Positions 4,637 through 57,134 of a stretch of DNA of 64,000 bases are shown here, one piece after another. The DNA lies in the NCBI RefSeq assembly GCF_052324685.1, contig NC_135223.1, positions 23,544,869 to 23,608,868 of the forward strand. The letters are read 5' to 3'. Origin of the DNA: Brachyhypopomus gauderio (taxonomy: Eukaryota; Chordata; Actinopteri; Gymnotiformes; Hypopomidae). Position 1 is the stretch's first letter. Each line of letters starts with the position of its first letter. The notes under the pieces were generated by a model, which did no database searches, was not told the origin of the DNA, and worked only from the letters and a program-made list of their open reading frames with translations. The translations under genes and the position numbers were made by a program.

Positions 4637-8098
<3,462 letters not shown>

Positions 8099-9872: not shown

Positions 9873-10697
9873 CAAGATGGCGCATTAGGCACAGGCTGGC
9901 TTGGATCTCCTTAACTTATCAGCAGTTCCCTCAGGAACTTGTTGGCAGCAATCTTAGGGTTTTTAAGAGCTGTCAGTGTACAGGTATCACCTTCCTTTGT
10001 ATGACTGGTCTCTCTAAGACCGAGGCCAACTATAAGAACACAGTTCCACATTCATGGAACATTAGACAATCATTATTGTTGATGTTTTTCTGGTCAACAC
10101 ATTTGAGCCCTGTTCATTTGCCTCGGTCTTCCAATATGCCTAATGCCAAAAGAAATGCAATAGCTGCACTTGTTTTCAGCTTGTAATCACACCAGAACTA
10201 AAACACTGTTTAGACTTGAATATTTTCATGAATAAGGAGCCTGTTTGCAAAAATGATGGTGCTGCATAATTCAAGCTGTTATGTGTGAGAATGGTGGTCC
10301 GTGCAATTTGCTGAGGTTCTCCATTTTCATCCCAGGGTGTAATCCACACGGGTCAAAGCTTCTATAATTTATCACCTATTGTAATGAATTCCTGGTTAAG
10401 TACTGGAGGTTGCAGGCACAGCACTGTTCTATTATCAGACCACTATTTTCATACCACTTGTTTTATATGTGTAACAATTTGATACTCTTTATTTGTAATT
10501 GTAATAAACATATGTCATTAATTTAGACACACACACACACACACACACACACAGAGAGAGAGATTGAGAGCAGACGGGGGGACCAAACACTAAAACAATA
10601 GTGTTCATTACACTGTGCATGACTGACATCCTCAGAGATTATAGATTGGGGCTTATGACAAAAAGTGATTTACGACTTTGACCTCTAGTTGACCCCG

Positions 10698-10799
10698 CCC
10701 CTTACACCCCCCCCCCCCCACTCCCCTCCACACCCCCCCCCCCTCCACCCCCCTCCATCCCCCCCCCCCCACTCCCCTCCGCCCCCTCCACCCCACCCC
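10698..10799. repeat. C-rich, G-quadruplex-prone tract (left arm)
   Basis: Runs of 4 to 12 C are separated by A or T, with G-runs on the minus strand. The mirror copy is at 21949-22048 in the right arm. Length differences between the two account for part of the arm-to-arm offset. Confidence 0.85.
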
Positions 10800-10952
10800 A
10801 ACTCATGACATCATCATCACATCAATCACGTCAAGACGACCAAAGAGTATTAAGTTGTGCTTTGATATTTTGCTTGATAAGGTTAATTAAAACATTATTT
10901 TGATCTTCTTTGATGTTGACTCTCCGGAGCAGTATAACCCTAGACACCTGCG

Positions 10953-10983
<31 letters not shown>

Positions 10984-11249
10984 AACAAACACGTGCACAT
11001 ACCCCTAGTCCACACAGATCAGCGCTAAAAGATAGGAGGATCTCAGATACACACAAACACACACCCTGAACAGAACAGGAGGATCTCAGACACACACACA
11101 CACCCTGAACAGAACAGGAGGATCTCAGACATACACACACACACACACACACACACACCCACTCCCCTGAACAGAACAGCACACACACACACCTAGTCAC
11201 ACACACACACACACACACCTAGTCACACACACCCACTCCCCTGAACAGA

Positions 11250-11289
<40 letters not shown>

Positions 11290-12200
11290 TACCCCCTAGT
11301 CACACAGAACCGCGCATGCGCACACAAATATGCTTACTTTGAGTAACTTCAAACAGTTAACAAAACTCTGATGAACCAATGAGGAGGCATTCTCAACACA
11401 CCAATCCGGGGTGCATGTTTAGAGCGCGAGCATTTAAAGAGAGAGAGGGGGAACGTTTCCTTGAGTAGCCAACATGCATTCGACTGTGGTATGCGAATAT
11501 CCATACAAACCATTTTTTTCCTGAGTGAGGCCCCATACTGACTTGAAGTAACTCTGAGGGTCCTCGGCACACTGAGTTGACCTCGTCACCTTTCCCTCAA
11601 TGAATTAACTCAGGTCTTCCCACACACACACACACACACCGATGCACTCGCACATGACCTTGACTCACGCTGTAGGGAAACCTCCGTCCACTGCCCGCGA
11701 CACACACACACACACACACACACACGCGCCCCCTAGTCACACACTCCCCTAGTCACACAGAACAGCGCACACACAAATATGCCTACTTCAAAGTAGCGTA
11801 CTTCAAACAATTAACAAACTCTGATGAACCAATGAAGAATCATTCTCAACCGAGTTAAACCACACTGTATAAACATTAAAATTACCTCTTTTAAAATTTT
11901 ATGTAGAGAACTTGTTAAGTTATCAAGTTTATAATGACAATCTTAAAACAATGTAAATATATGTAAAAGATTAATACATTGTTTTATTCACTGTTTTTTT
12001 CTGAAAACATGGAACTCAGATTTCAGTCTCCCTATATCAAAGAAACTGCCATAACTTTTGATCAAATGTTGGAATATCTCCTCAGGAATCACCCGACTCT
12101 TTTAAAACATATCCTTTCTAAAGTCTGCAGGAGCCTATGATACATGTTGGGTCATAGTGCTTAATATCCGTTATGTGAAGCTCCACTGTGTAGCAGAGTT

Positions 12201-12401
12201 TCAGGGAACTTCCTGAAGACTTATGAAAGGCCGTCCTTTAACAGTAAATGTGGGTTTATCAATAAATGTGACAAACCCATAGAAAGTTGCAAAAAAACAC
12301 TGGACCGAGGCATGAATTGTGCACCAGTTTAACACCAAGTTTAATCTATGTGAATTGCAGTTTACAAAAATTGCTTCTGGGGCAATTTCTTTAACTTTAT
12401 C
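12201..12401 (-). pseudogene. hAT transposase relic, left-arm copy
   Basis: This is the mirror image of 20345-20545. On the minus strand it reads KEIAPEAIFVNC, then SHRLNLVL, then FFATFYGF. It is identical in decay to the right-arm copy, so it was already dead when the arm was duplicated. Confidence 0.6.
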
Positions 12402-12753
12402 TTAAAGTCCTTTAGCGGGAGCCATGACAGTAGTCACAATGTACATCACAAAGTGCTGCATCTGTTATTTTAAAACACCAAAGACAGATTGGACATTTTG
12501 TCGTTCTGAAATATAAAACATCCACAAATCATTACTAAGTTTGGGCCTGCGGTATTTACATAACAAATTATCAGACTGTTGTGCATGACATGAAAATGTC
12601 AGTTGTCTTATCTACTCGCCAGTCAAAAATGTAAGCAGATGGAACTTCATCTTTGATTTCATTAAGGCCAGAGGCTGTAATAACAGAGCCTACAGTTGTA
12701 AATAACTCTGAATGTAGTTGGACATGCCAGAAAACAGAGGATGACTGGAGTGG

Positions 12754-13101
12754 TTAAGACATCATCGTACACGGATATTCTCTGTAATTGCCCTTGTTAG
12801 TAGATTCTACCCTCATTACAACCTCTAAAAGTGAGCTGTTTAACGTCGAGCAGTGAAGAACATCAATATCTGGATAGTTGCTATTTTGTGCTGTTAAATC
12901 TTTATCTTTTGGTCCCTTAATATGTAGCCCATCATCAATCACACGTTCTACTGTGACTCTACATAGGAAACCTGACCATGAACATGAGCTCACGTTCCTT
13001 GTTTTTCTATTGAGTTTTGTATGTCTAGTCAAAATTAACCAAACCCTCCAAACACACCTTTCACCAAACAATATGTAACCGAGATGATTGCGGCCAAACA
13101 T
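12754..13101 (-). CDS. Hypothetical 115-codon ORF, left-arm copy
   Basis: This is the mirror twin of 19645-19992 and encodes the same 115 residues. No domain is recognised, and a gene is not established. It may be a decayed part of the neighbouring transposon relic. Confidence 0.2.
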   Translation of the reverse strand: MFGRNHLGYILFGERCVWRVWLILTRHTKLNRKTRNVSSCSWSGFLCRVTVERVIDDGLHIKGPKDKDLTAQNSNYPDIDVLHCSTLNSSLLEVVMRVESTNKGNYREYPCTMMS

Positions 13102-15899
13102 TCTCTTAGTTTAAGGCAAGACACTACAGGTGAATAGGGTAAAAATGTCATCTAGCAATCACTATGAAACAATGATTATTGACATTAAGAGAATTACAAG
13201 TTTTCTGAAATGTTGTTTAAATATGCAACTTAGGCGTTATCTAATTAAATATATGTTAATTTGCATTTATTTCAAAAACAGAAATCTAAACAATGCATAA
13301 AGTCAGGTTCAAAATTCTTGTTTTGAGATTCTGAATATCTCTTTATTACTTTATAAATCAGAAAAACTGTTTACTTACTCTCAATCTAATCATATCATTA
13401 GAGCATCCCCAACAATAAAAGGACAAACAACAGCAAAACAGAGCAATGTAATGACTAAGTTTAACTTCAATAAAACGCAATCACAGCGCACACACTGCAA
13501 CCTGTAGAACTTTTACCTTAGATTGTTGTATGTCTGTCCTGCACAATAGTTCCCCAGTCCTGTTTACAACCTAGTCATCCATCCCTGCTCCATATGTATG
13601 TCCCTCACACATTTCCTCATGATGTCTTTTCAGCTTTTTAGCTGTGCTCAGGTTTGCACTTGTGTTTCACGCTGGCAGACGTGTCAGATGCGACAACCTC
13701 TGCTTTTGATATTCTGAGTATATCAGGTTCATTACATTGACAGTAAGACTGGGCTCTGCAGCCACAATCTCTCCATATCAGTCATCATAGCAGAGGCACC
13801 TTCACTAAAGGTAGAAATGGCCATACCTGTTGCTGCCTCAACCCTGCATTTACCAACACAATTAAATGCATAGGATATCACTACCTGTTCATCTCCTCAC
13901 GTTTAATTGGTGTATTTATTTTTTACTTTTACGTAACATAGGTATGAGTTTAAAACCTTTAGTCACAAAACATTGTATTCATTCACTTTTATTAATATTT
14001 TGTCCATTCTACCACTAAAGAAAAAATCTGTAGGGTAAAACTGACATTATTTAAATGTCATTATATAAAACTGTCTCTATCTCAACCCTGTCCCATACCT
14101 GTATTATTTTTGTAAACCTGCATGTCCCAAGACGCGTATATGTACAGTATATACAGGTTTGCGGTACCCATCTCTTTCACACAGACTGCACTCTTAAAAC
14201 AAACTGCTGCAAAATCCGTGGTCTGATATTAATTTTAAGCCCTGTGCCTACACAATTAGGACAAATTAATCCACTAATTAGTTCAAACGCGCTTTGCTGT
14301 CTAAAGTCTAAAGACATTTGCATTTTACACCTGAGAATATCCCTCTGCAATCTTCACTAAAATGAAGCGACTTAAGAAGTCAATATTTACATTTTTCTAC
14401 AGTATATACAAACAGTATAGTAAATAATAAATAAAATGAGCTGGAGTTTATGAGTTTATATTCCATATATGCCCCATGAACCGAGCTTGAATTCCTCCAA
14501 ATGCCGGGGTATGCTTTTAAAACTATGTTCTTTGTCAAAGTGATGAAAAGCTTCAGATGATCTTCCAATCATTATATATTACACTGCACAAATTCATTCC
14601 TACTGTGCAATAAATGTGTAAATATTCCAGATAACAACTGAACTGAAAACTGAACTGAAAAAGAAGTATACAGTCTGAAGTGTAGTACTGAACCCCAAAT
14701 ATGCGCAATGTCCGAGGGGTTAAACGTGTTGTGCTTCTATGGGGGAAAACGTCACGCTAGTTGATGACAACCTGTGAGAACTTGTTCTTTGAACACTTGC
14801 ACGTCCGGTACATTGTTTTGGAAGAATATAGTTATGTACATATAATATTAAATATCTGCAGAACTTTTTTCAAGATATTTTGGATATTTTACCTGTGCTT
14901 ACCTCGCAGTTGCCTTTGAACTGCGGTTATCTATTACACTTTAGGTCTAAACTCATATCCATACTGTTTAAAAGGTTTTTGAAGTAACGTAATGTTTTGT
15001 ACTACATTTTCCATATGACTTGTGCAGTTTAATGAAGTTTATATATAGGCTACTTTGCACTTCACTTGCCCGGCTGAAGACCTCTGTCTAAACCTCCTGT
15101 TTCTCTATAAAATCTGCACAATTAGGGGAGGCCGGGTATGTTTGTAACCCTTTTTGCTTCCAGTATGGAAAACACAATATGTATTAGTTAAACAATATAC
15201 AAGACTCGTGTGGCTTAATGAAATGTGGGAGTGATAGAATTTATAATTATTTTATAACTGTGGGGTATTTTTCTTGTCCAGAATCAACCAGCTTTTTGCT
15301 GCCATGGTTCTATGGTGTAACTATTTTGTACTTCACTGCACATCAACATTTTTCTCAACTAGGTATTCAACAAGTGTATCAACCACTTTGCAAACATTAA
15401 TCTGTTTCTTTGTTGAAAGTTTTACTACACAAATGTCTATTATATACACACACAGACAAAGCACATGATCGATTTTTACAGCATTGTTGCTCTTAGGCAT
15501 GAGAACCAACAGTTTACTAATAGACACATGGGGTGTTTCGTTAGAATCTACACACACAACTGGGCCAAATGATGCCAATCATGCGACGTTGTTGTTTTGA
15601 CAACATTCATTTGATTCTTGAAATTTTGTAAACGTTTAACATCATCAGCGTTCATGTTATTAAAAAGTGTAAAATCATCCACACTATCGCCAATACAATT
15701 ATACAACCTTTTTGAGTGATTTATGACCCTTGAGTGACATGTTTGATTGACAGGCTATCCCCCACAAGGGGAGGTCTGGGGGTACGCCCCCCACAGTTCA
15801 CATCCCCTGCCACACCACACCTGTTGGTGCATGACGCCTTGACGTCTATGTCACACAGTTTAGTCAATCAGACGCGAGACATTTAAATATGTAGATGTT

Positions 15900-15914
15900 G
15901 TATATAGTATTTAA
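15900..15914 (+). promoter_or_regulatory. Possible TATA-type core promoter of the orphan ORF
   Basis: TTATATAGTATTTAAA lies about 40-50 bp before the first ATG (15952) and about 60 bp before the long open frame. Spacing is plausible, but AT-rich sequence is common here and no initiator or CpG context was found. Confidence 0.25.
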
Positions 15915-15964
15915 ACCGACACTGCAGTTTATGTGGCTACAGCATTTTAAAATGTCTGCTGTGT

Positions 15965-16954
15965 GTGGATCAGGCTCTTTTTAGAGATTTAACAGTTACG
16001 CCAAGATTTAGTTCTAGTGGTGAAACCAATTTGTTTTTAGCGCCAAGGAAGAGACGGTATACCAAAGCATTTGGTCAAATACCTCGCGACCACTTTAGGG
16101 ATGTTAAAATTAATCTGTTTGATTCTCTGGCTTATGACGTTTGTGGGGTGGTCAAAGAGGATCACAGCCTACCCGAAAGTGCGTTAAAAGAAACACAACT
16201 CCACATCGTGGGCACACAACATCAAGACAAGGCCAACATGCAGGCCAACGTGTTTGAGGATTTTCATCCAGCAGACCAGCCGGATGCCTGTGAGCGTGTG
16301 TGGTATAGAAACTACAGAGGTCCGTGCTTTGAATATACGGAGATCGGCACCGGTCGTAGGTTTGTGGACTACAGCTATGATGAATCAGCTATGGACAACA
16401 CGGGACCGGACAATAGTATGTTGGCTCTTGGATATGTGAATATGGCCTCCCCATCGGATGAGCAAGTCGATGTTCCAGAAGACACAATCACACATGAGCA
16501 GCCCGATGATGTGGACAGCCGAGTGTGTACTACGTCGTTGAAACTGATAAAATCTGCCGTTGTTGCAATCCTACAACACATCATAGATCGCAAGTTGAAG
16601 GAGATGTGTCTCGGTTGTGAGGTGAATCACCCCAGCCAGCGTCGACACACGTGTCTCTTTGAGCCGGATATCTTCTTTTTTGAAAAATACTATAAAGATA
16701 TAACACAGTCACTGTTCATACCCGAGTTAAGAGAAGCCATAGCGGGTCTTCTAAAGTGTTTTGGAATACAGCTGGCTCTTCAAAAAGTGCAAGGATGTGC
16801 TGAAACCGTTGTCTGTGAATTGCGGAGCGAGCCGTACATTGTGGAAAAGCTGCAGGAGCTAAGGAAAAGTCTGGTTGATCAAACATCCGAACAATTCGTC
16901 TCTGACGCCGTTGACCATTGGGAAGGCGGTTCAAAGACTCGTAGTGCTGTTTAA
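15965..16954 (+). CDS. Orphan ORF in palindrome spacer, protein with a CX2CX3HX5HXC cluster
   Basis: The 329 sense codons open at a GTG, and there is no in-frame ATG nearby upstream. An ATG at 15952 lies in another frame, separated by a short GT run, so the true start may be spliced or disrupted. The N-terminal 35 residues are basic (RKRRYTKAF), a long acidic middle follows, and the C-terminal third is helical. Cysteines 215, 218 and 230 with histidines 222 and 228 form CLGC-x3-HPSQRRHTC, a probable zinc-binding knuckle. I recall similar Cys-His/HPSQ signatures in uncharacterised metazoan ORFs linked to selfish elements or small DNA viruses, but cannot name a family. Codon usage looks like a real gene and GC is higher than in its surroundings. 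The downstream frames at 16875-17198 and 17168-17413 may continue the same ancestral gene after frameshifts. The function is unknown. Confidence 0.45.
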   Translation: MDQALFRDLTVTPRFSSSGETNLFLAPRKRRYTKAFGQIPRDHFRDVKINLFDSLAYDVCGVVKEDHSLPESALKETQLHIVGTQHQDKANMQANVFEDFHPADQPDACERVWYRNYRGPCFEYTEIGTGRRFVDYSYDESAMDNTGPDNSMLALGYVNMASPSDEQVDVPEDTITHEQPDDVDSRVCTTSLKLIKSAVVAILQHIIDRKLKEMCLGCEVNHPSQRRHTCLFEPDIFFFEKYYKDITQSLFIPELREAIAGLLKCFGIQLALQKVQGCAETVVCELRSEPYIVEKLQELRKSLVDQTSEQFVSDAVDHWEGGSKTRSAV

Positions 16955-17198
16955 GTCGAAAATGGGTCTGGCTTGTGTACGACAGAGTTTGTCAGAACGT
17001 GTGATGAAACATCGTGTGTACTACGAATTGACACATTTGTTGTATAATTGTATTGGCGATAGTGTGGATGATTTTACACTTTTTAATAACATGAACGCTG
17101 ATGATGTTAAACGTTTACAAAATTTCAAGAATCAAATGAATGTTGTCAAAACAACAACGTCGCATGATTGGCATCATTTGGCCCAGTTGTGTGTGTAG
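16875..17198 (+). CDS. Second orphan ORF, overlapping the first and crossing into the right arm
   Basis: A 107-codon frame overlaps the end of the 329-codon ORF by 80 bp in a different frame. It crosses the spacer/right-arm junction at 17039. Its sequence looks protein-like (amphipathic; LTHLLYNCIGD and DDFTLFNNMNADDVKRL). A single frameshift near 16900-16950 would fuse it to the upstream ORF, which suggests one ancestral gene now broken, or programmed frameshifting. No homologue is recognised. Confidence 0.35.
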   Translation: MIKHPNNSSLTPLTIGKAVQRLVVLFKSKMGLACVRQSLSERVMKHRVYYELTHLLYNCIGDSVDDFTLFNNMNADDVKRLQNFKNQMNVVKTTTSHDWHHLAQLCV

Positions 17199-17413
17199 AT
17201 TCTAACGAAACACCCCATGTGTCTATTAGTAAACTGTTGGTTCTCATGCCTAAGAGCAACAATGCTGTAAAAATCGATCATGTGCTTTGTCTGTGTGTGT
17301 ATATAATAGACATTTGTGTAGTAAAACTTTCAACAAAGAAACAGATTAATGTTTGCAAAGTGGTTGATACACTTGTTGAATACCTAGTTGAGAAAAATGT
17401 TGATGTGCAGTGA
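17168..17413 (+). CDS. Third orphan ORF fragment, duplicated as mirror copy at 15333-15578
   Basis: The 81-codon frame lies in the same frame as the 329-codon ORF and overlaps the end of the second one. It reads VCVDSNETPHVSISKLLVL, then a cysteine-rich hydrophobic stretch, then KVVDTLVEYLVEK. It is probably the 3' end of the same ancestral gene. The left arm carries the identical sequence on the minus strand (15333-15578), where it has no upstream part and cannot be functional. Confidence 0.3.
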   Translation: MASFGPVVCVDSNETPHVSISKLLVLMPKSNNAVKIDHVLCLCVYIIDICVVKLSTKKQINVCKVVDTLVEYLVEKNVDVQ

Positions 17414-19644
17414 AGTACAAAATAGTTACACCATAGAACCATGGCAGCAAAAAGCTGGTTGATTCTGGACAAGAAAAATACCCCACAGTTATAAAATAAT
17501 TATAAATTCTATCACTCCCACATTTCATTAAGCCACACGAGTCTTGTATATTGTTTAACTAATACATATTGTGTTTTCCATACTGGAAGCAAAAAGGGTT
17601 ACAAACATACCCGGCCTCCCCTAATTGTGCAGATTTTATAGAGAAACAGGAGGTTTAGACAGAGGTCTTCAGCCGGGCAAGTGAAGTGCAAAGTAGCCTA
17701 TATATAAACTTCATTAAACTGCACAAGTCATATGGAAAATGTAGTACAAAACATTACGTTACTTCAAAAACCTTTTAAACAGTATGGATATGAGTTTAGA
17801 CCTAAAGTGTAATAGATAACCGCAGTTCAAAGGCAACTGCGAGGTAAGCACAGGTAAAATATCCAAAATATCTTGAAAAAAGTTCTGCAGATATTTAATA
17901 TTATATGTACATAACTATATTCTTCCAAAACAATGTACCGGACGTGCAAGTGTTCAAAGAACAAGTTCTCACAGGTTGTCATCAACTAGCGTGACGTTTT
18001 CCCCCATAGAAGCACAACACGTTTAACCCCTCGGACATTGCGCATATTTGGGGTTCAGTACTACACTTCAGACTGTATACTTCTTTTTCAGTTCAGTTTT
18101 CAGTTCAGTTGTTATCTGGAATATTTACACATTTATTGCACAGTAGGAATGAATTTGTGCAGTGTAATATATAATGATTGGAAGATCATCTGAAGCTTTT
18201 CATCACTTTGACAAAGAACATAGTTTTAAAAGCATACCCCGGCATTTGGAGGAATTCAAGCTCGGTTCATGGGGCATATATGGAATATAAACTCATAAAC
18301 TCCAGCTCATTTTATTTATTATTTACTATACTGTTTGTATATACTGTAGAAAAATGTAAATATTGACTTCTTAAGTCGCTTCATTTTAGTGAAGATTGCA
18401 GAGGGATATTCTCAGGTGTAAAATGCAAATGTCTTTAGACTTTAGACAGCAAAGCGCGTTTGAACTAATTAGTGGATTAATTTGTCCTAATTGTGTAGGC
18501 ACAGGGCTTAAAATTAATATCAGACCACGGATTTTGCAGCAGTTTGTTTTAAGAGTGCAGTCTGTGTGAAAGAGATGGGTACCGCAAACCTGTATATACT
18601 GTACATATACGCGTCTTGGGACATGCAGGTTTACAAAAATAATACAGGTATGGGACAGGGTTGAGATAGAGACAGTTTTATATAATGACATTTAAATAAT
18701 GTCAGTTTTACCCTACAGATTTTTTCTTTAGTGGTAGAATGGACAAAATATTAATAAAAGTGAATGAATACAGTGTTTTGTGACTAAAGGTTTTAAACTC
18801 ATACCTATGTTACGTAAAAGTAAAAAATAAATACACCAATTAAACGTGAGGAGATGAACAGGTAGTGATATCCTATGCATTTAATTGTGTTGGTAAATGC
18901 AGGGTTGAGGCAGCAACAGGTATGGCCATTTCTACCTTTAGTGAAGGTGCCTCTGCTATGATGACTGATATGGAGAGATTGTGGCTGCAGAGCCCAGTCT
19001 TACTGTCAATGTAATGAACCTGATATACTCAGAATATCAAAAGCAGAGGTTGTCGCATCTGACACGTCTGCCAGCGTGAAACACAAGTGCAAACCTGAGC
19101 ACAGCTAAAAAGCTGAAAAGACATCATGAGGAAATGTGTGAGGGACATACATATGGAGCAGGGATGGATGACTAGGTTGTAAACAGGACTGGGGAACTAT
19201 TGTGCAGGACAGACATACAACAATCTAAGGTAAAAGTTCTACAGGTTGCAGTGTGTGCGCTGTGATTGCGTTTTATTGAAGTTAAACTTAGTCATTACAT
19301 TGCTCTGTTTTGCTGTTGTTTGTCCTTTTATTGTTGGGGATGCTCTAATGATATGATTAGATTGAGAGTAAGTAAACAGTTTTTCTGATTTATAAAGTAA
19401 TAAAGAGATATTCAGAATCTCAAAACAAGAATTTTGAACCTGACTTTATGCATTGTTTAGATTTCTGTTTTTGAAATAAATGCAAATTAACATATATTTA
19501 ATTAGATAACGCCTAAGTTGCATATTTAAACAACATTTCAGAAAACTTGTAATTCTCTTAATGTCAATAATCATTGTTTCATAGTGATTGCTAGATGACA
19601 TTTTTACCCTATTCACCTGTAGTGTCTTGCCTTAAACTAAGAGA

Positions 19645-19992
19645 ATGTTTGGCCGCAATCATCTCGGTTACATATTGTTTGGTGAAAGGTGTGTTTGGAG
19701 GGTTTGGTTAATTTTGACTAGACATACAAAACTCAATAGAAAAACAAGGAACGTGAGCTCATGTTCATGGTCAGGTTTCCTATGTAGAGTCACAGTAGAA
19801 CGTGTGATTGATGATGGGCTACATATTAAGGGACCAAAAGATAAAGATTTAACAGCACAAAATAGCAACTATCCAGATATTGATGTTCTTCACTGCTCGA
19901 CGTTAAACAGCTCACTTTTAGAGGTTGTAATGAGGGTAGAATCTACTAACAAGGGCAATTACAGAGAATATCCGTGTACGATGATGTCTTAA
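19645..19992 (+). CDS. Hypothetical 115-codon ORF, right-arm copy
   Basis: The open frame starts with an ATG and ends at a TAA. It contains a cysteine-tryptophan patch (CSWSGFLC) and a hydrophilic middle (HIKGPKDKDLTAQNS). I recognise no family. The mirror copy is at 12754-13101. The hAT relic lies some 350 bp downstream in the same orientation, so it may be a piece of that element. Confidence 0.2.
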   Translation: MFGRNHLGYILFGERCVWRVWLILTRHTKLNRKTRNVSSCSWSGFLCRVTVERVIDDGLHIKGPKDKDLTAQNSNYPDIDVLHCSTLNSSLLEVVMRVESTNKGNYREYPCTMMS

Positions 19993-20344
19993 CCACTCCA
20001 GTCATCCTCTGTTTTCTGGCATGTCCAACTACATTCAGAGTTATTTACAACTGTAGGCTCTGTTATTACAGCCTCTGGCCTTAATGAAATCAAAGATGAA
20101 GTTCCATCTGCTTACATTTTTGACTGGCGAGTAGATAAGACAACTGACATTTTCATGTCATGCACAACAGTCTGATAATTTGTTATGTAAATACCGCAGG
20201 CCCAAACTTAGTAATGATTTGTGGATGTTTTATATTTCAGAACGACAAAATGTCCAATCTGTCTTTGGTGTTTTAAAATAACAGATGCAGCACTTTGTGA
20301 TGTACATTGTGACTACTGTCATGGCTCCCGCTAAAGGACTTTAA

Positions 20345-20545
20345 GATAAAGTTAAAGAAATTGCCCCAGAAGCAATTTTTGTAAACTGCAATTCACATAG
20401 ATTAAACTTGGTGTTAAACTGGTGCACAATTCATGCCTCGGTCCAGTGTTTTTTTGCAACTTTCTATGGGTTTGTCACATTTATTGATAAACCCACATTT
20501 ACTGTTAAAGGACGGCCTTTCATAAGTCTTCAGGAAGTTCCCTGA
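20345..20545 (+). pseudogene. hAT (ZMYM1-like) transposase relic, right-arm copy
   Basis: The plus-strand translation gives DKVKEIAPEAIFVNC, SHRLNLVL, and FFATFYGFVTFIDKP. The HxxAHRLNL block and the following FF-x-FV helix are conserved in hAT transposases of the ZMYM1/zinc-finger MYM-like type. Upstream the frame has stops, so only a fragment of the catalytic domain is left. Confidence 0.6.
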
Positions 20546-21457
20546 AACTCTGCTACACAGTGGAGCTTCACATAACGGATATTAAGCACTATGACCCAAC
20601 ATGTATCATAGGCTCCTGCAGACTTTAGAAAGGATATGTTTTAAAAGAGTCGGGTGATTCCTGAGGAGATATTCCAACATTTGATCAAAAGTTATGGCAG
20701 TTTCTTTGATATAGGGAGACTGAAATCTGAGTTCCATGTTTTCAGAAAAAAACAGTGAATAAAACAATGTATTAATCTTTTACATATATTTACATTGTTT
20801 TAAGATTGTCATTATAAACTTGATAACTTAACAAGTTCTCTACATAAAATTTTAAAAGAGGTAATTTTAATGTTTATACAGTGTGGTTTAACTCGGTTGA
20901 GAATGATTCTTCATTGGTTCATCAGAGTTTGTTAATTGTTTGAAGTACGCTACTTTGAAGTAGGCATATTTGTGTGTGCGCTGTTCTGTGTGACTAGGGG
21001 AGTGTGTGACTAGGGGGCGCTGTGTGTGTGTGTGTGTGTGTGTGTGTCGCGGGCAGTGGACGGAGGTTTCCCTACAGCGTGAGTCAAGGTCATGTGCGAG
21101 TGCATCGGTGTGTGTGTGTGTGTGTGGGAAGACCTGAGTTAATTCATTGAGGGAAAGGTGACGAGGTCAACTCAGTGTGCCGAGGACCCTCAGAGTTACT
21201 TCAAGTCAGTATGGGGCCTCACTCAGGAAAAAAATGGTTTGTATGGATATTCGCATACCACAGTCGAATGCATGTTGGCTACTCAAGGAAACGTTCCCCC
21301 TCTCTCTCTTTAAATGCTCGCGCTCTAAACATGCACCCCGGATTGGTGTGTTGAGAATGCCTCCTCATTGGTTCATCAGAGTTTTGTTAACTGTTTGAAG
21401 TTACTCAAAGTAAGCATATTTGTGTGCGCATGCGCGGTTCTGTGTGACTAGGGGGTA

Positions 21458-21497
<40 letters not shown>

Positions 21498-21763
21498 TCT
21501 GTTCAGGGGAGTGGGTGTGTGTGACTAGGTGTGTGTGTGTGTGTGTGTGACTAGGTGTGTGTGTGTGCTGTTCTGTTCAGGGGAGTGGGTGTGTGTGTGT
21601 GTGTGTGTGTGTGTATGTCTGAGATCCTCCTGTTCTGTTCAGGGTGTGTGTGTGTGTCTGAGATCCTCCTGTTCTGTTCAGGGTGTGTGTTTGTGTGTAT
21701 CTGAGATCCTCCTATCTTTTAGCGCTGATCTGTGTGGACTAGGGGTATGTGCACGTGTTTGTT

Positions 21764-21794
<31 letters not shown>

Positions 21795-21948
21795 CGCAGG
21801 TGTCTAGGGTTATACTGCTCCGGAGAGTCAACATCAAAGAAGATCAAAATAATGTTTTAATTAACCTTATCAAGCAAAATATCAAAGCACAACTTAATAC
21901 TCTTTGGTCGTCTTGACGTGATTGATGTGATGATGATGTCATGAGTTG

Positions 21949-22048
21949 GGGTGGGGTGGAGGGGGCGGAGGGGAGTGGGGGGGGGGGGGGATGGAGGGGG
22001 GTGGAGGGGGGGGGGGTGTGGAGGGGAGTGGGGGGGGGGGGGGTGTAA
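21949..22048. repeat. G-rich, G-quadruplex-prone tract (right arm)
   Basis: This is the mirror of the C-rich tract at 10698-10799, with many G-runs of 4 to 14 separated by A or T. It lies within 70 bp of the arm's outer end. Confidence 0.85.
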
Positions 22049-22190
22049 GGGGCGGGGTCAACTAGAGGTCAAAGTCGTAAATCACTTTTTGTCATAAGCC
22101 CCAATCTATAATCTCTCTATCCTCAAATGAATCAGTGCATAACAGCCAGAAAAGCGTGAATGAGTGCTGTATGAGGGTCAAACCAAGACC

Positions 22191-22320: not shown

Positions 22321-25300
22321 TATGGAGCATCTGGCAGCTGAGGTCCCAGAGGCGCTGTGCCAGGTCGTCATCAAGAGCAGCGTCACAGCAACTTGCAGGT
22401 GCACAGTCACTGCAGGGAAGACAGTGGAGACAGTCAGTGTGCAATACAGTCACTGCAGAGAGGACAGTGGAGACAGTCAGTCTGCAATACAGTGACTGCA
22501 GGGAAGACAGTGGAGACAGTCAGTCTGCAATACAGTGACTGCAGGGAAAGACAGTGGAGACAGTCAGTCTGCAATACAGTGACTGCAGGGAAGACAGTGG
22601 AGACAGTCAGTCTGCAATACAGTGACTGCGGCGGGGAAGACAGTCAGTCTGCAATACAGTCACTGCAGGGAAGTCAAGTTTGCAGACAGTGGAGAGGTAC
22701 TGCAGGAACACACACAATTTTAATAACCAATGTAATAAAAGTACCAAAGACACTTGAACATGGCTGCTAATCACTCCACTTCTTTTACCCACCTGTAATA
22801 CTTGCCCGTCTCTTTCTCTAGCTCAGGAGCTACAGCACAGTAGATGGTGGTTTGGGCTCCCTGCACTGAAGTCTTGGTAAAGGGCTTAGCCATCCACATG
22901 ACTGCCTGCTGCACTCTACTCAAGTGTCTCCACAGTTCAGTCTGCACTACCCCAGGGTGAAGCGCATACACGCTTACACCTGAACCTGTCACACAAACCC
23001 AAGGATTCTCGTCAGGCCACATTTTTACAGAGGACGATGGAATGCAGTAAATCCTTAAAACCACCACAATATAGCTGTGTGACTAAGCAGAGCTGACCCA
23101 TTAAAATATCAAATCAGGTCAGCTATATGGAGTTATATTTCTCTACACTTAATATAATTCTGCTCTGGAGCAATTCTGCTCTTGACTTTAGAACAGCAAC
23201 CCCGAAGACCCAGGTAATGTGTGAGAGACTTGCCCTTTTGATGCAGTGGCACTCACCTTGTAGTTTTTTAGCCAAGGAGCGAGTGAAGAGCACATTGGCC
23301 AGTTTACTCTGACTGTAAGCTTTGGACTTATCATAGCTTTTCTCACTGTTAATATCATCCAGATTAATAGTCCCCCACTTGTGAGCCATGGATGAGACGT
23401 TGATGATACGAGCTGGAGCTGATCTCTTCAGCTGATCAATTAACAAAAACGTCAACAGGAAGTGTCCTACAAGATCATGGGAAAAGTTATGACCTCTCTC
23501 ATTGCATTTAATTAAAATAAGACTTTAAATGTATTTACAATCACTCCTGCTTACCCATGTGGTTGACACCAATTTGCATTTCAAATCCATCTGCTGTTTT
23601 TTCATATGGACATACCATCACCCCAGCATTGTTAATCAGGATGTTGACATGTTTCTCCTCTAGAAAAACAAAGTTGTACTTACATCGTGTAATTATAGCT
23701 GAGCATCTTTATATATAAAGAGAGAATTCAGTTATTCAGCCTACAAGATTAAAAAAACAATCCTCACAATTAGAAAATCAAGTATGGCTGCATCTTTTGA
23801 ACAGAATGTTTTGTAAAAGGTCATTGGTAAGATGAAACACTGCAGTAGATGTGCAGTACCATATGTGCAGTGCCAGGTGGTACCTGAGCAAACAATCAAG
23901 AATAGGCTACAATCAAAGCAGATGCTGGGAATGATGTTTCAGTATCACAGCAGTGCAACACGATGCTTATAACTGTCTTCTCTTAGTCGTGAGGTGCTAA
24001 ATAGTCATACATTTTAAAACAAGGCTAGAACATTTACAATCTGCTGTGTGCATTCAGTAAAACAAGGAAAGACTTGTTTGTCAATTGAATGTCAATTCAT
24101 CCATTGTTCTCGATTAGGCAATACTACACAGAGTATCAAATATTACAACAAACTCTCTAGGCAGGTATCTGATGTTTGGTCTGGACCACAGAGATAGGCT
24201 GATCTAGTTTATAGTAGACTTCAACCGTGTTATTTCAATTTATAACAGCATCTAATTCTTAGAATTATATCAAATTATCTACATGCATGTGTTACTACAG
24301 TGGTGCTCAGGTAAAAAGAGACTGCACAAGAGAACAGTTAAAATAATGAAGTCCAAAAGTAAGGCGTTTCTACCACTACCACAATGTAGCATTTCCAAGA
24401 ATATACATCTCTGTCTGGTATCCAGGTCCAAATAAAAAGGGTGTTTAAAGCAAATTCTCATATGACAATGTAAAATTGTTCTGCCAAGGGCTAAAGTAAG
24501 CTTCATAATGCAGTGGCCACCATGGATATTTTTGATTAGTTAAATTTAAGGTCCTATGAGAAAATCTATCAGACTAAATGTATCATGCTCTCACCACTGT
24601 TGATAGCCTGGGCAAATTCTTTAATAGAGCTGGAGTCGGCCAGGTCAAGCTTTTTACAGATGACATCCTGATTTCCAGAAACTTTGATGACCTCTTTAAC
24701 AGCAGCATCGCCTTTTTCCACATTCCTGCAACCCATGATAACACGAGCACCTGAAGACAGAGACAGCATTTACCATCTCCTAGGAGACAGAGACAGGATT
24801 TACCCTCTCCTAGAAGACAGATAGGATTTACCATCTCCTAGGAGACAGAGACAGCATTTACCATCTCCTAGGAGACAGAGACAGGATTTACCCTCTCCTA
24901 GGAGACAGAGATAGGATTTACAATCTCCTAGGAGACAGAGATAGGATTTACCATCTCCTAGGAGACAGAGACAGCATTTACCATCTCCTAGGAGACAGAG
25001 ACAGGATTTACCCTCTCCTAGGAGACAGAGATAGGATTTACAATCTCCTAGGAGACAGAGACAGCATTTACCATCTCCTAGGAGACAGAGACAGTATTTA
25101 CCATCTCCTAGGAGACAGAGACAGGATTTACCATCTCCTAAGAGACAGAGTTAGGATTGCCTCCACTCTTTACAACAGTTACACAAAAGTCAAGCGCGAC
25201 AATCACTGAATTAATAAAGTAAAGGTACAACTAAAATAAAGTATATATAGTTAAAAACATTGCCAGCTACATAACATCCCCGAATACGTTAAAGTCAGAC

Positions 25301-25699: not shown

Positions 25700-27400
25700 G
25701 TGTGCAAAAATGCGATATAGTACGATTAAAGTAAAACAACTTCTAATCCTGAGCACGAGTAAGAACCGAGTATGAAGTATCGACGTAAACAGGAACAACG
25801 ATCCGTTCGCCTCGATTGGCTCGCGCGTTTATGGGGCGGGTCGGTCCGCCCTTAACAGCCCGTTTGAGGAATTGTTACAAGTGCAACATTTAAGCTTTTA
25901 CATCTGTAGCATTAAGAAACGACCAGTTTCATGATCGAATTACTCCTGCACGTGTTTTGAGTGCCATATCACTGTGCAGTGACAGATGCCCGTTTGGTAG
26001 ATGTAGTAGATGGTGGGTGTAGTTCTTACACTAGCCCCACAGGTGATGTCCATGCTCATGGTGCGTACAAAACCTGGCTATAAAGTCTACTGATAACAAT
26101 TTACAAGTCTTTTAAACTCATTAAAGACCATTCATGGCATTCGTCTGCAGATTGTGTCAGCTTATTTTGAAAACCTAATGCAACCTTACTGAACACTGCA
26201 TATAGTCCGTGGAACAGTCTGAAGGCATCGCTTCAAGTACAACTGCTTAACTTCAAAATTATGTTTTTGTTGCCATGCATTTTTATGATAAAGTACTAAT
26301 TCTCAGTTAATAATGTTACACTTCATGTTCTGGACCACATGTGAAAAATTAACTAGTAACGTTAAACATTAACAACTAGTAACATTAAGAACGGTTTTAC
26401 CATTTGGGGTGTTTCCACTATGTCAGATATCTGCAAGTGTAAAGCCTGGTTTATACTTTCGCGAGCGACCGTAGCGCGCGGCTCCGCCCACCTCGCGCGA
26501 CCCTGCGCGAGCGGTGTAGGCGTTTATACTTTCGCGAACGTCGCGAGCGTCGCTGCAGTGTTCTCCGAAACGATAGGTGGCGATAGGTGGCAGTGGAGAA
26601 TAAAAAACCCCTGCAAAAACGGGGAAAGAACATTTTTACCTGACCAGAGACCGTATATATACACATCAGGCATCAAACGTAAATATGGCTTTGCAGTGTT
26701 GTCCGAAACGATACGTTAACAAATACGAGCCTCTTGTAATTCCAGGGCGACACATGAGAGAACGTGAAGACGTTAAGATTGGGCGTTTTGAAAATAAACA
26801 ACCATAAACTAATGTGATAAAAAAGCGAATTATTTCGATTCATTTCGAGTATATGTATAAATATTTAACTTAATTAAGTTTAACGTGCTGGGAAATATTG
26901 AAATGGACCTTTAAAGTGACGTACAAGTGCATTAATTCCACCTTGTATAGGTGTATGAACCCGGCAAACATGACTTTGTCCATCGCGCTGAAGCGCGGCG
27001 CGCGCGCGAAGTTACAAAATTCGGGAGGTGCACGACCTCGCGCCGCGACAGCGCGCGAGGCCCTCGCGCACGGGCGGAGCCACCGCGATTACGTCATTTT
27101 CGCCGCGCGGACCCTCGCGCCGCTCGCGGCGCGTCGAGTATAAACCAGGCTTAAGTGTTACTTTGTGTGAACTGCTTAAGCCACCTGGCTGGCATCAGTC
27201 ACCCTAGGCCAAATGATTGAGATGAACAAATTAGTTTCACTACTGAACCGATCCTGGTTCCCAGATCTGAAAATAAATTTAAAACTGCATTTACAGACTC
27301 CTGAACGGCAGTGTGTGGTAAATGAACATGACAGAATATGTTAAAGTTGTTTAAATGTCAGTAAAAACAAACAAAACACTAGACATGTACAGAGGATGTT
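25700..27400. other. Intergenic region between ddx6 3' end and rdh12l start
   Basis: About 25700-25870 is the rdh12l promoter side: moderately CpG-rich, with an inverted CCAAT (ATTGG) near 25815, and no clear TATA. A PIF/Harbinger MITE fills 26443-27151. The rest is AT-rich unique sequence without supported exons. Confidence 0.5.
26443..27151. mobile_element. PIF/Harbinger-type MITE, intact ends with TAA target duplication
   Basis: The terminal inverted repeat AGCCTGGTTTATACT at 26443 is matched by AGTATAAACCAGGCT ending at 27151, flanked by TAA on both sides (26440-26442, 27152-27154). A 3-bp TWA duplication is typical of PIF/Harbinger. The sub-terminal parts are extremely CpG-rich (CGCGAGCG repeats) and the middle is AT-rich. 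The 709-bp element has no transposase. A rearranged relative sits in the ddx6 intron (from 34895). Confidence 0.85.
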
Positions 27401-28519: not shown

Positions 28520-37979
<9,460 letters not shown>

Positions 37980-48907: not shown

Positions 48908-51574
48908 AGAGAGAGACAGAGAGAGAGAGTTAGAGAGAGAGAGGAAGGGCAAGGGAAAGTCCCAGTTTCTTACCCTCTGAGCCACAACAGAAGGTATGTT
49001 GAGAAACAGCCCAGAGAGCGAGGGGCATGTGACTTCTCGGAATAAGGACACATAAGTTCATACACACATACCAGACATACAGCAGCTGCTTCACAGAGCA
49101 CACACACACACACACACGCGCGCGCAAACACACGCACACACACATGCACAAATACACACACATACACACACACACACACACACAAACACACGCACACACA
49201 CACGCACAAACACACGTACACACACATGCACAAACACACACACACACGCACAAACACACGCACACACACACGCACAAACACATGCACAAACACACACAAA
49301 TACACGCACACACACACACACACACGCACGAATACACACACACACACACACACACGCACGCACAAACACTTACACACACATGCACAAACACACACACACA
49401 CACACGCACAAACACACGCACACACACATGCACAAACACACGCACACACACATGCACAAACACACACAAACACACACATGCACAAACACACGCACACACA
49501 CAAACACACAGCTTACACTGCAATGTTCAGAAAACAAGAAAAATGCATGTTAATGCACACATATCTAACCTCTGCACACATAAATATCTAACCTCCACAT
49601 ATATACCTTCTACATACATAACCATCACACACATAACTAACCTCCACATATATACCTTCTACATACATAACCATCACACACATAACTAACCTCCACGTAT
49701 ATACCTTCTACATACATAATTATCACACACATAACTAACCATAACACTAACCACTGCAAGCATAACTAATCTCCACACGCATTACTAACCTCCACATACA
49801 TAACCACTGCACGCATAACTAACCTCCATGCGCAAAACAAACTTCTACATACATAACTTGCCTCCGCATACATAACTAACCTTGACACACATATCTAGCC
49901 TCTGTATACAAAACTAACCTGCACACATAACTAGACTCCATGCACATAACCTAATGATAATGATTTTGATTCTTTTCCTAATCTTCACTACAGCTGTTGC
50001 CGTGAGCGAGCACAGACTTGCTCAGAATCTATAATGAGCATTCAGTCGTTGTAAGTGGTCACAGTACATCTGTGGGCGTAAAGATGCTGTAGAGGAAAGA
50101 GGAATACACTAATATAGAGAAATCGGTGGTAGTAGTAACACTTGTTAAACATGCTAGTCAGCTGAGAAGATGCTCACTTTTTTAAATTTAATAAAGAACG
50201 CCTGGAGATAATTTGAGTGAAGTATCGGAGACATTGTATTTTATAATATGTGTGTTCTTTTACTTACTGGAAAACACATAAAAGTGAAGACAACCAAAAA
50301 AATAATAATAAAGACACAAACAAAAAAAAAAAAACAATAAGACAAACCCCTGTTCATATGCTTAACTCAAGCAAAGCTTCTGGTAACTGTGTTGCATTGC
50401 GTGTGCTGACTGAAACCCCAGCATGAGGTGAGGTAATCTCTGTGGTTTGGTTAAACATGAAGTGGCTATCTGTGATGAAGAGAACGGGTGAGATAGCTGG
50501 AAGTGCTGCTTGATGGAGGGAGGGAGGGGGGGAGGGAAGGAGGAGAACAGAATGTGAAAGCATGGGGACAGTCCATGTGGACTTCAGCAGGGGGGGGCAG
50601 GAGCCACAGCAGTTCCCAGCCAGAGCAGAAGGTTCACACTGCACACAGGGAAGTGGTGTGATGTGCAAACAGGCTAACCACCGAAAGGCTCCCAAGAAGC
50701 ACCAGACGTGAGAAGGCACCGGGTCTGGGGAGGAAAGGTCAGCTCCCTGGATGTGCGGGTGTAGCACAGGTGCCGATTTTCATCCCCTCTCCTCATGCAA
50801 TGCTATGATCTTCATCACCTCGAGCTTAGTACCTTTGCTTGTTTTTTGATTGGATCACTATGTGTGCATGTGTGTATGCGTGCACACCAGGAGGTGTCCT
50901 ACCTGTCTGAGGTTATTATACAAGTCCAAGTCTTTGCGAGCCCGACGTAATATGTGAATGAGCCAGTAAACCACAGCCTCGTTCTCCTGAACGACAGCGA
51001 TATGCAGAGACCTGCAATAATAAACACAATCCATGCATCAGCCAGACAAGGGTCTGCTTCATGGGCAGAGTTCCCAGACACTGAGAACCCTCAGTTATGA
51101 AGCTCTACTAACCCTTTGCTTTAGTCCTACAAGTAAAACATGAGGTATTCCACCAACGTTTCATTCAAAATGTTCTTCTCCAGGGCTTAAAGATCGTGTA
51201 TGAATAGGAAAGTTTAGGAACTTTTTACCAGATGCTACCTGGCCTGCTCTGTTCTTAAGAGTTACTGGTGTTCTTTTATTGGTTATTTAGGTCTAGCTCA
51301 TCTGTTTCTGAATGTAAAAGATTTTCTGGACACGGTTTTAAAGACCCTTATTACAGCTTTCTGCCATTTGAACTTCTTAAAAGCATCAGCAGAAGTGAAT
51401 ATGTGTATTGCTTCACTCACAGCTGTCAGAAGCACCCAATGTCTGTAAATTATCTGGATGACTCTACTAAACAGTTGCTATGCTTGACTGGTACAAATTT
51501 TTAATCAACTTTATCAATATTTATATTAACTCCAGTCCCTCTATTACAAAACACATGCACATGTTTCTCACATG

Positions 51575-55456: not shown

Positions 55457-56628
55457 TAGAAGGTTCAACGTTGGACATCATGCAACATGCAAACTTCTTC
55501 ATGCACTTCCATCTTATTTTATTAGGTTTCTTAGCATCAACCTCAAAACCTGAATCCAGCTATACACATAACAGCAAACACTCTAATGTCACAGTGACAG
55601 ATACAGTGCAGACCAAGCTGCTGAGAAAAGGTTCCACAACAGGCCAATTGAACCAAACATTACCCTGAACTGGATGCAAAACTGTATTATTAAAAGTGAA
55701 TTTAAACTTTGGCATTTTGGGCCATCACTGGACCATAAAATGCATTATTACTGAGGCAGAACAGACCTGACCCAAGGGTAAACCTGCACCCACTCACACA
55801 GAAGTCACACACCAACGGCATCAAACAACAATTTGCATCTGGCCTATAATGAATGCTGCAACCTGCTGCATGTAAATGAACCCATTTTGTTATACTCCAG
55901 TAGTGTCTGTAACACATACAGATGCAGCTACAGCGCACATGAAGGTTATTGAAAAGATGTACTCTCCATAGCATTATGGGTATTATTCCAAGTAAGATGA
56001 AACTTTGCAGAAAGATTATGCCAAATCCAGAACAGCTAAATAATGCCCATTTTATATCCTTTCCTGATATTAATAATGCTGATAGTTAATATGCTTGCAC
56101 CTCACACTACTTATGAAAAAAGAAAGTATTATTGCCAACAGTATCTCCTTATATGACCACTGAGGTCTTCTTACCGCCTTTGAGGGCTTTCATGCTCCCC
56201 TGGTAAAAATGTCTCATTTATCTATGAATGTCCCATGTGCTCTACATGTACTTACCCAGTGGAGTTGGGAAAGAAACGGCTAAAGAAGAGGATACAATGA
56301 ACGACGGAGACGTACAGTACACAGCTGTGTCGTTATCTGAGAGCAACGCACACAGCAAGCTGTTCATTTGTTAATGTAGTCACAGGAAAAGAAGAGAAGC
56401 CTGCAAAACACTCTACACTTCACACTCCTTTAGCACTACATACATTTGACAAGTCGATGCTATGCAGTTACTACTACAGTCTGTACATGCACCTAATGTA
56501 TAGTTTTCTTATATAAACAAATCTCTTTAAGGACTTGTGAAAAGCAAAACAAAGTACATAAAACCAGTGATAGAGAGAGAAAGAGTAAAGAGCAGGAACA
56601 GAAATAGTACAGAGAAGAAAGAGAGATG

Positions 56629-56687
<59 letters not shown>

Positions 56688-56876
56688 GGAGAGAGATAGG
56701 GAGAATGGGAGAGAGAGATAGGGAGAATGGGAGAGAGAGATAGGGAGAGGGGGAGAGAGAGATAGGGAGAGAGAGATAGGGAGAATGGGAGAGAGAGATA
56801 AGGAGAGAGAGAGATGGGGAGAGGGAGAGAGAGAGAGAGATAGGGAGAGAGAGAGAAAGATGGGGAGAGAGAGATG

Positions 56877-56918
<42 letters not shown>

Positions 56919-57099
56919 TGGGGAGAGAGATGGGGAGAAGGGGAGAGAGAGAGATTTGGGGAGAGAGAGAAAGAGAGTGAGAGAGAGAGAGAGAGAGATG
57001 GAGAGTGAGAGAGATAAAGAGAGCGAGAGAAATAAAGAGAGCGAGAGAGAGATAAAGAGAGAGAGAGAGAGATGGGGAGTGAGAGAGATAAAGAGAGCA

Positions 57100-57134
<35 letters not shown>

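Follow-up and report, generated by a model that had tools for sequence, protein, structure and literature searches.

A palindrome with near-identical arms of about five kilobases raises the question of how it arose and what has kept its arms alike. We asked this of an 11.5-kb palindrome in a 64,000-nucleotide stretch of the genome of the fish Brachyhypopomus gauderio (C13:23544869-23608868 in a 796.5-Mb assembly; hereafter the window). The original prediction had described a near-perfect palindrome with 5.07-kb arms, a 1.33-kb spacer and few differences between the arms, and had offered as explanations a local inverted duplication, a large terminal-inverted-repeat element with an internal gene, or an assembly fold-back. 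Self-alignment of the window with BLAST bore this description out: the left arm (10634-15707, plus strand) and its mirror, the right arm (22116-17039, minus strand), were 99.90% identical over 5,078 columns and enclosed a spacer of 1,331 bp (15708-17038). The arms differed by one substitution (13973 T versus 18773 C) and three minor length differences, of which two fall in runs of C and one at a CA run. The length of the arms excludes a chance origin of their pairing. The predicted coordinates were right, and inclusion of the full termini extended the element to 10634-22118 (11,485 bp), with 5′-AG repeats at its ends, (AG)2 on the left and (AG)3 on the right, and with the six bases ATCCTC flanking it on both sides (10628-10633 and 22119-22124). 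The second explanation proved to be the right one, and the element can now be identified as Maverick-derived. We propose, with a probability of roughly 80%, that the palindrome is a mobile but non-autonomous element and a satellite of Mavericks (Polintons), with arms that are reset by hairpin synthesis or arm pairing before integration.

In the assembled sequence, the palindromes form a family. A search of the same genome with the spacer gave 178 matches from 40 scored candidates, with 94–99% identity for the near-full ones; these matches were followed up in part, and our copy counts cover the places whose junctions were read. Eleven other loci were sampled, nine of them in two stretches each and two in one. 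Eight of them were palindromes with a centre like that of the window, one (C139) was a palindrome with a mirrored centre, and two (C9 and C26) were non-palindromic Mavericks. With the junctions of fifteen further places read, the copies with a fold-back junction came to 25, including the window, in a genome of 797 Mb. Inverted arm sequence flanked the centre on both sides in 24 of the 25 and on the left side only in C67. Most of both arms was read in ten copies; for the rest we read the centre only, plus parts of both arms for C75. In C68, C90 and C104 the inverted arms enclosed shortened centres. The pieces read from C38 and C3:8.7M showed arm and gene on a single side, C1:40.55M had the gene and no fold-back junction, and C6:33.28M gave no readable junction.

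Perfect 6-bp target-site duplications, each with its own sequence, bounded all eight palindromes whose two ends were both available: ATCCTC (window), CACACT, CACCTC, GATGTT, AAGAAG, AATGAT, GATGAA and ACAGGG. These eight elements measured 11,485 bp (window), 13,505–13,719 bp (five copies), 14,955 bp (C139) and 15,477 bp (C164, the last including an extra insertion in one arm). Six of the eight, the window among them, ended in AG repeats and two in ATATAT. The latter two, at C1:53547877-53561442 and C1:50764402-50777906 (L017/L018 and L023/L024), end in ATATATTTATATAGGG or a close variant and have 6-bp duplications; their ATATAT ends lie outside the end motifs given in the available part of PMC8097293.

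Compared by sequence, the ends of the palindrome are those of an (AG)3 Maverick family, which we call family B. A genome search with the terminal 71 bp of the C74 palindrome gave 40 scored matches (of 88 candidates), and ten inverted pairs of such ends, 14.3–17.3 kb apart, enclosed an integrase open reading frame (ORF) without stops (in C406, C2, C57, C15, C6 twice, C19, C22, C179 and C4). The ends of these pairs were 87–100% identical to the 71-bp query, and the enclosed integrase ORFs belonged to the 58–59% family, that of C179 covering only residues 8–344 of 373. For one family B element, C57, the end pieces were read; it has the 6-bp duplication GAGGTC, and its left end was 84.3% identical to the outer 0.85 kb of the window arm (10660-11506, plus strand, mirrored at about 21243-22090) and 86.5% identical to that of C139 before continuing into a homologous accessory gene. 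No Maverick integrase match fell inside any palindrome among the matches scored (the best 110 of 1,585 candidates), and the window arms held no ORF longer than 118 aa outside the accessory gene; two window-arm ORFs had no Pfam match, and polymerase, ATPase, protease and capsid genes were not sought gene by gene in all copies. Judged by termini that it has in common with the integrase-bearing family B of the same genome, the palindrome is a non-autonomous Maverick derivative, and these termini together with the target-site duplications indicate that family B is probably what moved it. Among the scored integrase matches, 20 of the 58–59% Maverick group and 8 of a 57% group were near full length and without stops. 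The host genome is rich in Mavericks, which were perhaps active recently.

The centre has a different affiliation: by the same kind of comparison it is the left end, with the accessory gene ORF1/ORF2, of an (AGT)2 Maverick family, family A. The non-palindromic elements C9 (L027) and C26 (L028) were 99.8% alike over 4,180 bp from their (AGT)2 end and carried the accessory gene of the spacer (ORF1 of 359 aa and ORF2 of 180 aa) followed by a 373-aa ORF, which in C9 contained the rve and chromo domains of an integrase. The C9 element is 14,239 bp long, ends at an inverted (ACT)2 and has the 6-bp duplication CATGTC. In the window, the family A left-end region without its terminal bases (15708-15907, plus strand) contains the same CTTTTTGAGTGATTTATGACC block as C9 and C26, and is followed on the same strand by ORF1 (15908-16954) and by ORF2 (16863-17198), a second accessory ORF that overlaps ORF1, runs from the spacer into the right arm and is 111 aa long here versus 180 aa in C9. 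The inverted tail of ORF2 also occupies 15339-15707 on the minus strand of the left arm (arm positions 4706-5074), where it was 95.9% identical to L027 and L028. The arms had been predicted to be non-coding, which holds for the arm body, where there is no long ORF, but not for the inner 369 bp of each arm, which are the tail of the Maverick accessory gene reaching in from the spacer.

ORF1 was open in all ten palindromes examined, with a start region that differs from family A, and its omega against C9 was 0.39–0.44. Among the ten palindromes we counted 283 non-synonymous and 76 synonymous differences, summed over non-independent pairs. Because this ratio is close to that of the sites, ORF1 appears to drift neutrally within the palindrome family, with no constraint visible any longer; the same counts led us to reject selection on the spacer gene as cargo. 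Families A and B have homologous ORF1 genes (29% identity over 147 aa by BLASTP), and the accessory pair common to both (L027:5909-7475, L057:862-2707 and window 15908-17198; 29–30% identity) consists of ORF1, which contains a C-x2-C-x3-HPSQ-x2-H-x-C motif, and the smaller ORF2. Neither ORF of the family A pair in the spacer matched Pfam, the B pair having been compared by BLASTP only; ORF1 had no convincing match in the PDB and none in a viral contig collection, and ORF2 had one weak PHROG match.

Between the outer end and the ORF2 tail lies the arm body (11507-15338, plus strand, mirrored at about 17408-21242). Apart from those two regions and short repeat matches, the arm had no match to the end pieces of families A or B. 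That the arm body might be Maverick coding sequence was considered and set aside, as it was unmatched by these pieces and was found instead in a linear element, C27 (C27:168353-180159; L059-L061). This 11.8-kb element is non-palindromic, with B-type ends, the duplication GTAGTG and repeats about 1.1 kb long (98%). Arm sequence runs along its right third and recurs in two more pieces with other sequence between them; the identities are 89.5, 95.5, 98.5 and 99.5%. A comparison that used the arm of the sister copy C139 as intermediary showed most of the window's arm body to be present in C27. This element looks like the linear stock that gave rise to the arms. As observations on C27 itself, no integrase was listed for it among the scored matches, its other ORFs are of unassigned kind, and it constitutes a second kind of satellite.

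The junctions at which the palindrome turns suggest how the two families were combined. In junction types J1, J2 and J4 the family A end is without its last 26–33 bases, and the inverted accessory-gene tail is joined there. The 25 copies comprised seven J1 (C17 with one changed base), two J1b, four J1c, four J2, one J3, six J4 including the window, and one J4b. The joined sequences overlap by 5 bp in J1, 3 bp in J2, 1 bp in J3, 2 bp in J4 (AC, at 15706-15708 in the window) and 1 bp in J1b, and by 3 bp and 6 bp at the centres of C139 and C4, respectively. Random joins of the same sequences gave overlaps of at least 3 bp in 5.4% of cases, at least 5 bp in 0.6% and at least 6 bp in 0.2%. J1 holds A-terminal bases absent from J2, and J2 holds gene bases absent from J1; therefore neither is a deletion of the other, and the possibility that all variants are deletions of one founder was rejected. 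By our interpretation, J4 and J3 could have come from J1 and J2 by later deletion, and J1b from a base change or from a join at a shifted position. The centre of C139 is a perfect 2,056-bp stem around a 7-base loop, as expected if a 3′ end folds back on itself, and C4 has the same mirrored pattern with a loop of about 0.4 kb. Taken as they read, these junctions suggest that the palindrome was apparently made by fold-back self-copying of a Maverick DNA end.

We also compared arms within and between copies. Within copies, 25 substitutions were found in 55,881 BLAST-aligned columns over the ten copies (0–0.14%), with 0–6 insertion or deletion events per copy, while the divergence between copies was 0–1.96% over 45 pairs. 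In an alignment of 19 of the 20 arms (the right arm of C164, which has no anchor, was left out), the two arms of one copy were sisters in all nine testable pairs. At 194 of 211 variable columns the arms agreed in every copy, the other 17 having a discordant copy, and gaps of 4 or more occurred 91 times in both arms of a copy and 21 times in one. Of the 27 copy-private gaps, 19 were in both arms; six of the remaining eight lay at one length-variable site, one was in C164 (for which one arm was aligned) and one in C74. All six private gaps of the window copy were mirrored, including one of 943 columns that was present in none of the other 17 arms. This gap is the trace of a deletion of about 0.94–0.97 kb, private to the window among the ten aligned copies, with its scar at 14300-14314 in the left arm and at about 18432-18446 in the right. 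Against this background of concerted change, C75, an older copy, had arms that differed at 10 of 622 columns, and its right arm was without about 117 bp and lost its match further out. Insertions of about 2.0 kb in C164 and about 1.2 kb in C17 were confined to one arm. Because the arms of C75 have diverged and two copies carry one-arm insertions, resetting of the arms seems to take place before integration rather than at the locus.

In the sequence of events that we propose, recombination would first fuse an A element's left end with the right portion of a linear satellite that ended in a B terminus. The free 3′ end at the A terminus, shortened by about 26 bases, would fold back and pair through five bases (GTTTG with CAAAC) at a point within the accessory gene some 1.3 kb distant; synthesis primed there would run to the far end and give a palindrome with B termini on both sides. 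The B integrase would then insert this palindrome with 6-bp duplications. Before integration, the arms would repeatedly be made identical by hairpin synthesis or by arm pairing in single-stranded replication intermediates; after integration, they would diverge like any duplicate. Kinship with Mavericks is what suggests that replication may rely on the Maverick protein-primed polymerase and that packaging may occur in B particles. A further interpretation, to which we would give even odds, is that in the palindromes the germ line has preserved defective-interfering-type genomes of an endogenous virus, which became a chimeric, snap-back, self-perpetuating satellite of two Maverick families, replicated and perhaps packaged by B, with its palindromic form renewed extrachromosomally. 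If so, the junctions would be direct fossil evidence that linear Maverick DNA replicates through displaced single strands.

Several points weigh against this scheme. At least one end was only 87% identical to the 71-bp query in six of the ten B pairs, and the outermost 26 bases of the window element align neither with the other copies nor with the C57 end. C9 only stands in for the A parent and is not the true ancestor, being 91–92% identical over the ORF1 region. The overlaps in J3, J1b and J4, the window's own junction, are of a length expected by chance. The case for divergence after insertion draws on the two one-arm insertions and on C75, the single older copy, in which the right arm is also rearranged. 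Finally, even among copies with the J4 junction in common, the mirrored arms are specific to each copy. Resetting must therefore sometimes leave the junction as it was, and a second resetting route, arm pairing and correction, is needed.

The strongest competitor would grant that the palindrome is a mobile element and have its arms kept alike after insertion by gene conversion at each locus, as the original prediction had envisaged by analogy with Y palindromes. The concerted arms of the ten copies bear out half of that comparison, and repair of a break at the centre, templated by the other arm, could both extend junctions (J1 to J2) and produce the mirrored centres of C139 and C4. The diverged arms of C75, a single older copy, and the insertions confined to single arms in C164 and C17 lean against it, and the centre of C139 turns within about 10 bp, as a hairpin would, rather than at two independent end points; we therefore regard maintenance by conversion in place as unlikely.

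The remaining alternatives dispute that the palindrome is a satellite at all. An assembly or library fold-back, as the original prediction had allowed, could account for near-identical arms, consensus polishing may inflate arm identity, and the mirrored centres of C139 and C4 are the most open to doubt; yet the eight tested copies all have different unique flanks on each side with matching 6-bp duplications, a spacer of defined sequence is common to the copies, and the arms differ between copies, which makes an artefact very unlikely. It is less probable still that the element is an intact, self-mobile Maverick with unusually long terminal repeats. Its termini, its 6-bp duplication and the family's size of 11.5–15.5 kb come close to that class, but the scored matches place no integrase inside, the window arms are without long ORFs beyond the accessory gene, the inner gene drifts neutrally, and repeats of 5–6 kb compare with a maximum of 1,447 bp reported for intact vertebrate Mavericks in the available part of PMC8097293. 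As for a local inverted duplication of host DNA at the window locus only, its shape alone speaks for it, whereas the 25 fold-back copies, the Maverick sequence at ends and centre, and the target-site duplications leave it with next to no probability.

The surroundings of the element in the window are ordinary, as predicted: the left neighbour is a minus-strand gene with Patched/sterol-sensing domains, and the right neighbour is a short-chain dehydrogenase gene. Microsatellites and gene content are teleost-like. Tandem repeat arrays, close to the element or farther to its right, occupy 22403-22690, 24755-25158 (30-base shift), 49092-49510 and 56566-57156. A dispersed repeat, like a short interspersed nuclear element in size, has three copies in the window (26712-26899, 35172-35358 and 35888-36081) that are 88–94% alike, one of them inverted. 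Scans of the window for Rfam families and transfer RNA genes gave no match.

Maverick replication has so far been inferred from gene content, and the satellite can be read as the product of hairpin-primed copying of a Maverick end. The family would thus offer an independent, sequence-level trace of linear, strand-displacing Maverick replication, with insertions that can be dated. It would also explain how near-perfect palindromes of 5–6 kb can stand on many scaffolds: recent insertion would be enough, with no need for maintenance in place. A genome survey that classed them as sex-linked palindromes or as assembly errors would misread them. In the literature that we searched on Maverick palindromes, non-autonomous Mavericks, foldback elements and snap-back linear replicons, consisting mostly of titles and summaries, no such element was recognised.

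Intact vertebrate Mavericks, as presented in the available part of PMC8097293, have 6-bp duplications, the end motifs (AGT)2, (AG)3 or (AC)3A, terminal inverted repeats of 46–1,447 bp, lengths of 12.7–24.6 kb and seven to eight core genes; their repeated end motifs would serve protein-primed replication, and virions had not so far been observed. The palindrome resembles them, on the features given there, in its 6-bp duplication, its similar length and, in most copies, its (AG)3 motif (PMC8097293), and it holds an accessory gene that in C9 precedes the integrase. Unlike them, it has 5–6 kb arms, and no core gene was found in it. Snapback genomes of adeno-associated virus (AAV) are described in the accessible portion of PMC8235507 as a major class of defective particles, which replicate with Rep and helper functions and are symmetric or looped; like our palindromes, they are self-complementary from one parent end. 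Unlike these parvovirus snapbacks, the palindromes are chimeras, are integrated in the genome and have multiplied as a family. The SYREC DNA of adenovirus type 12 is reportedly also a palindrome, with viral terminal DNA fused to foreign DNA, and is said to have been seen in virus stocks and not as a transposable family; our literature search on adenovirus palindromic recombinants found no paper. Foldback transposons such as Tetris are said to be mobile and to be named for their inverted repeats, and the palindrome is like them in being mobile with inverted repeats. Mammalian Y palindromes, lastly, are chromosomal and are kept by gene conversion; they share with the palindrome described here long near-identical arms and a short spacer, and differ from it in that the unit here is mobile and has an older copy, C75, with diverged arms.

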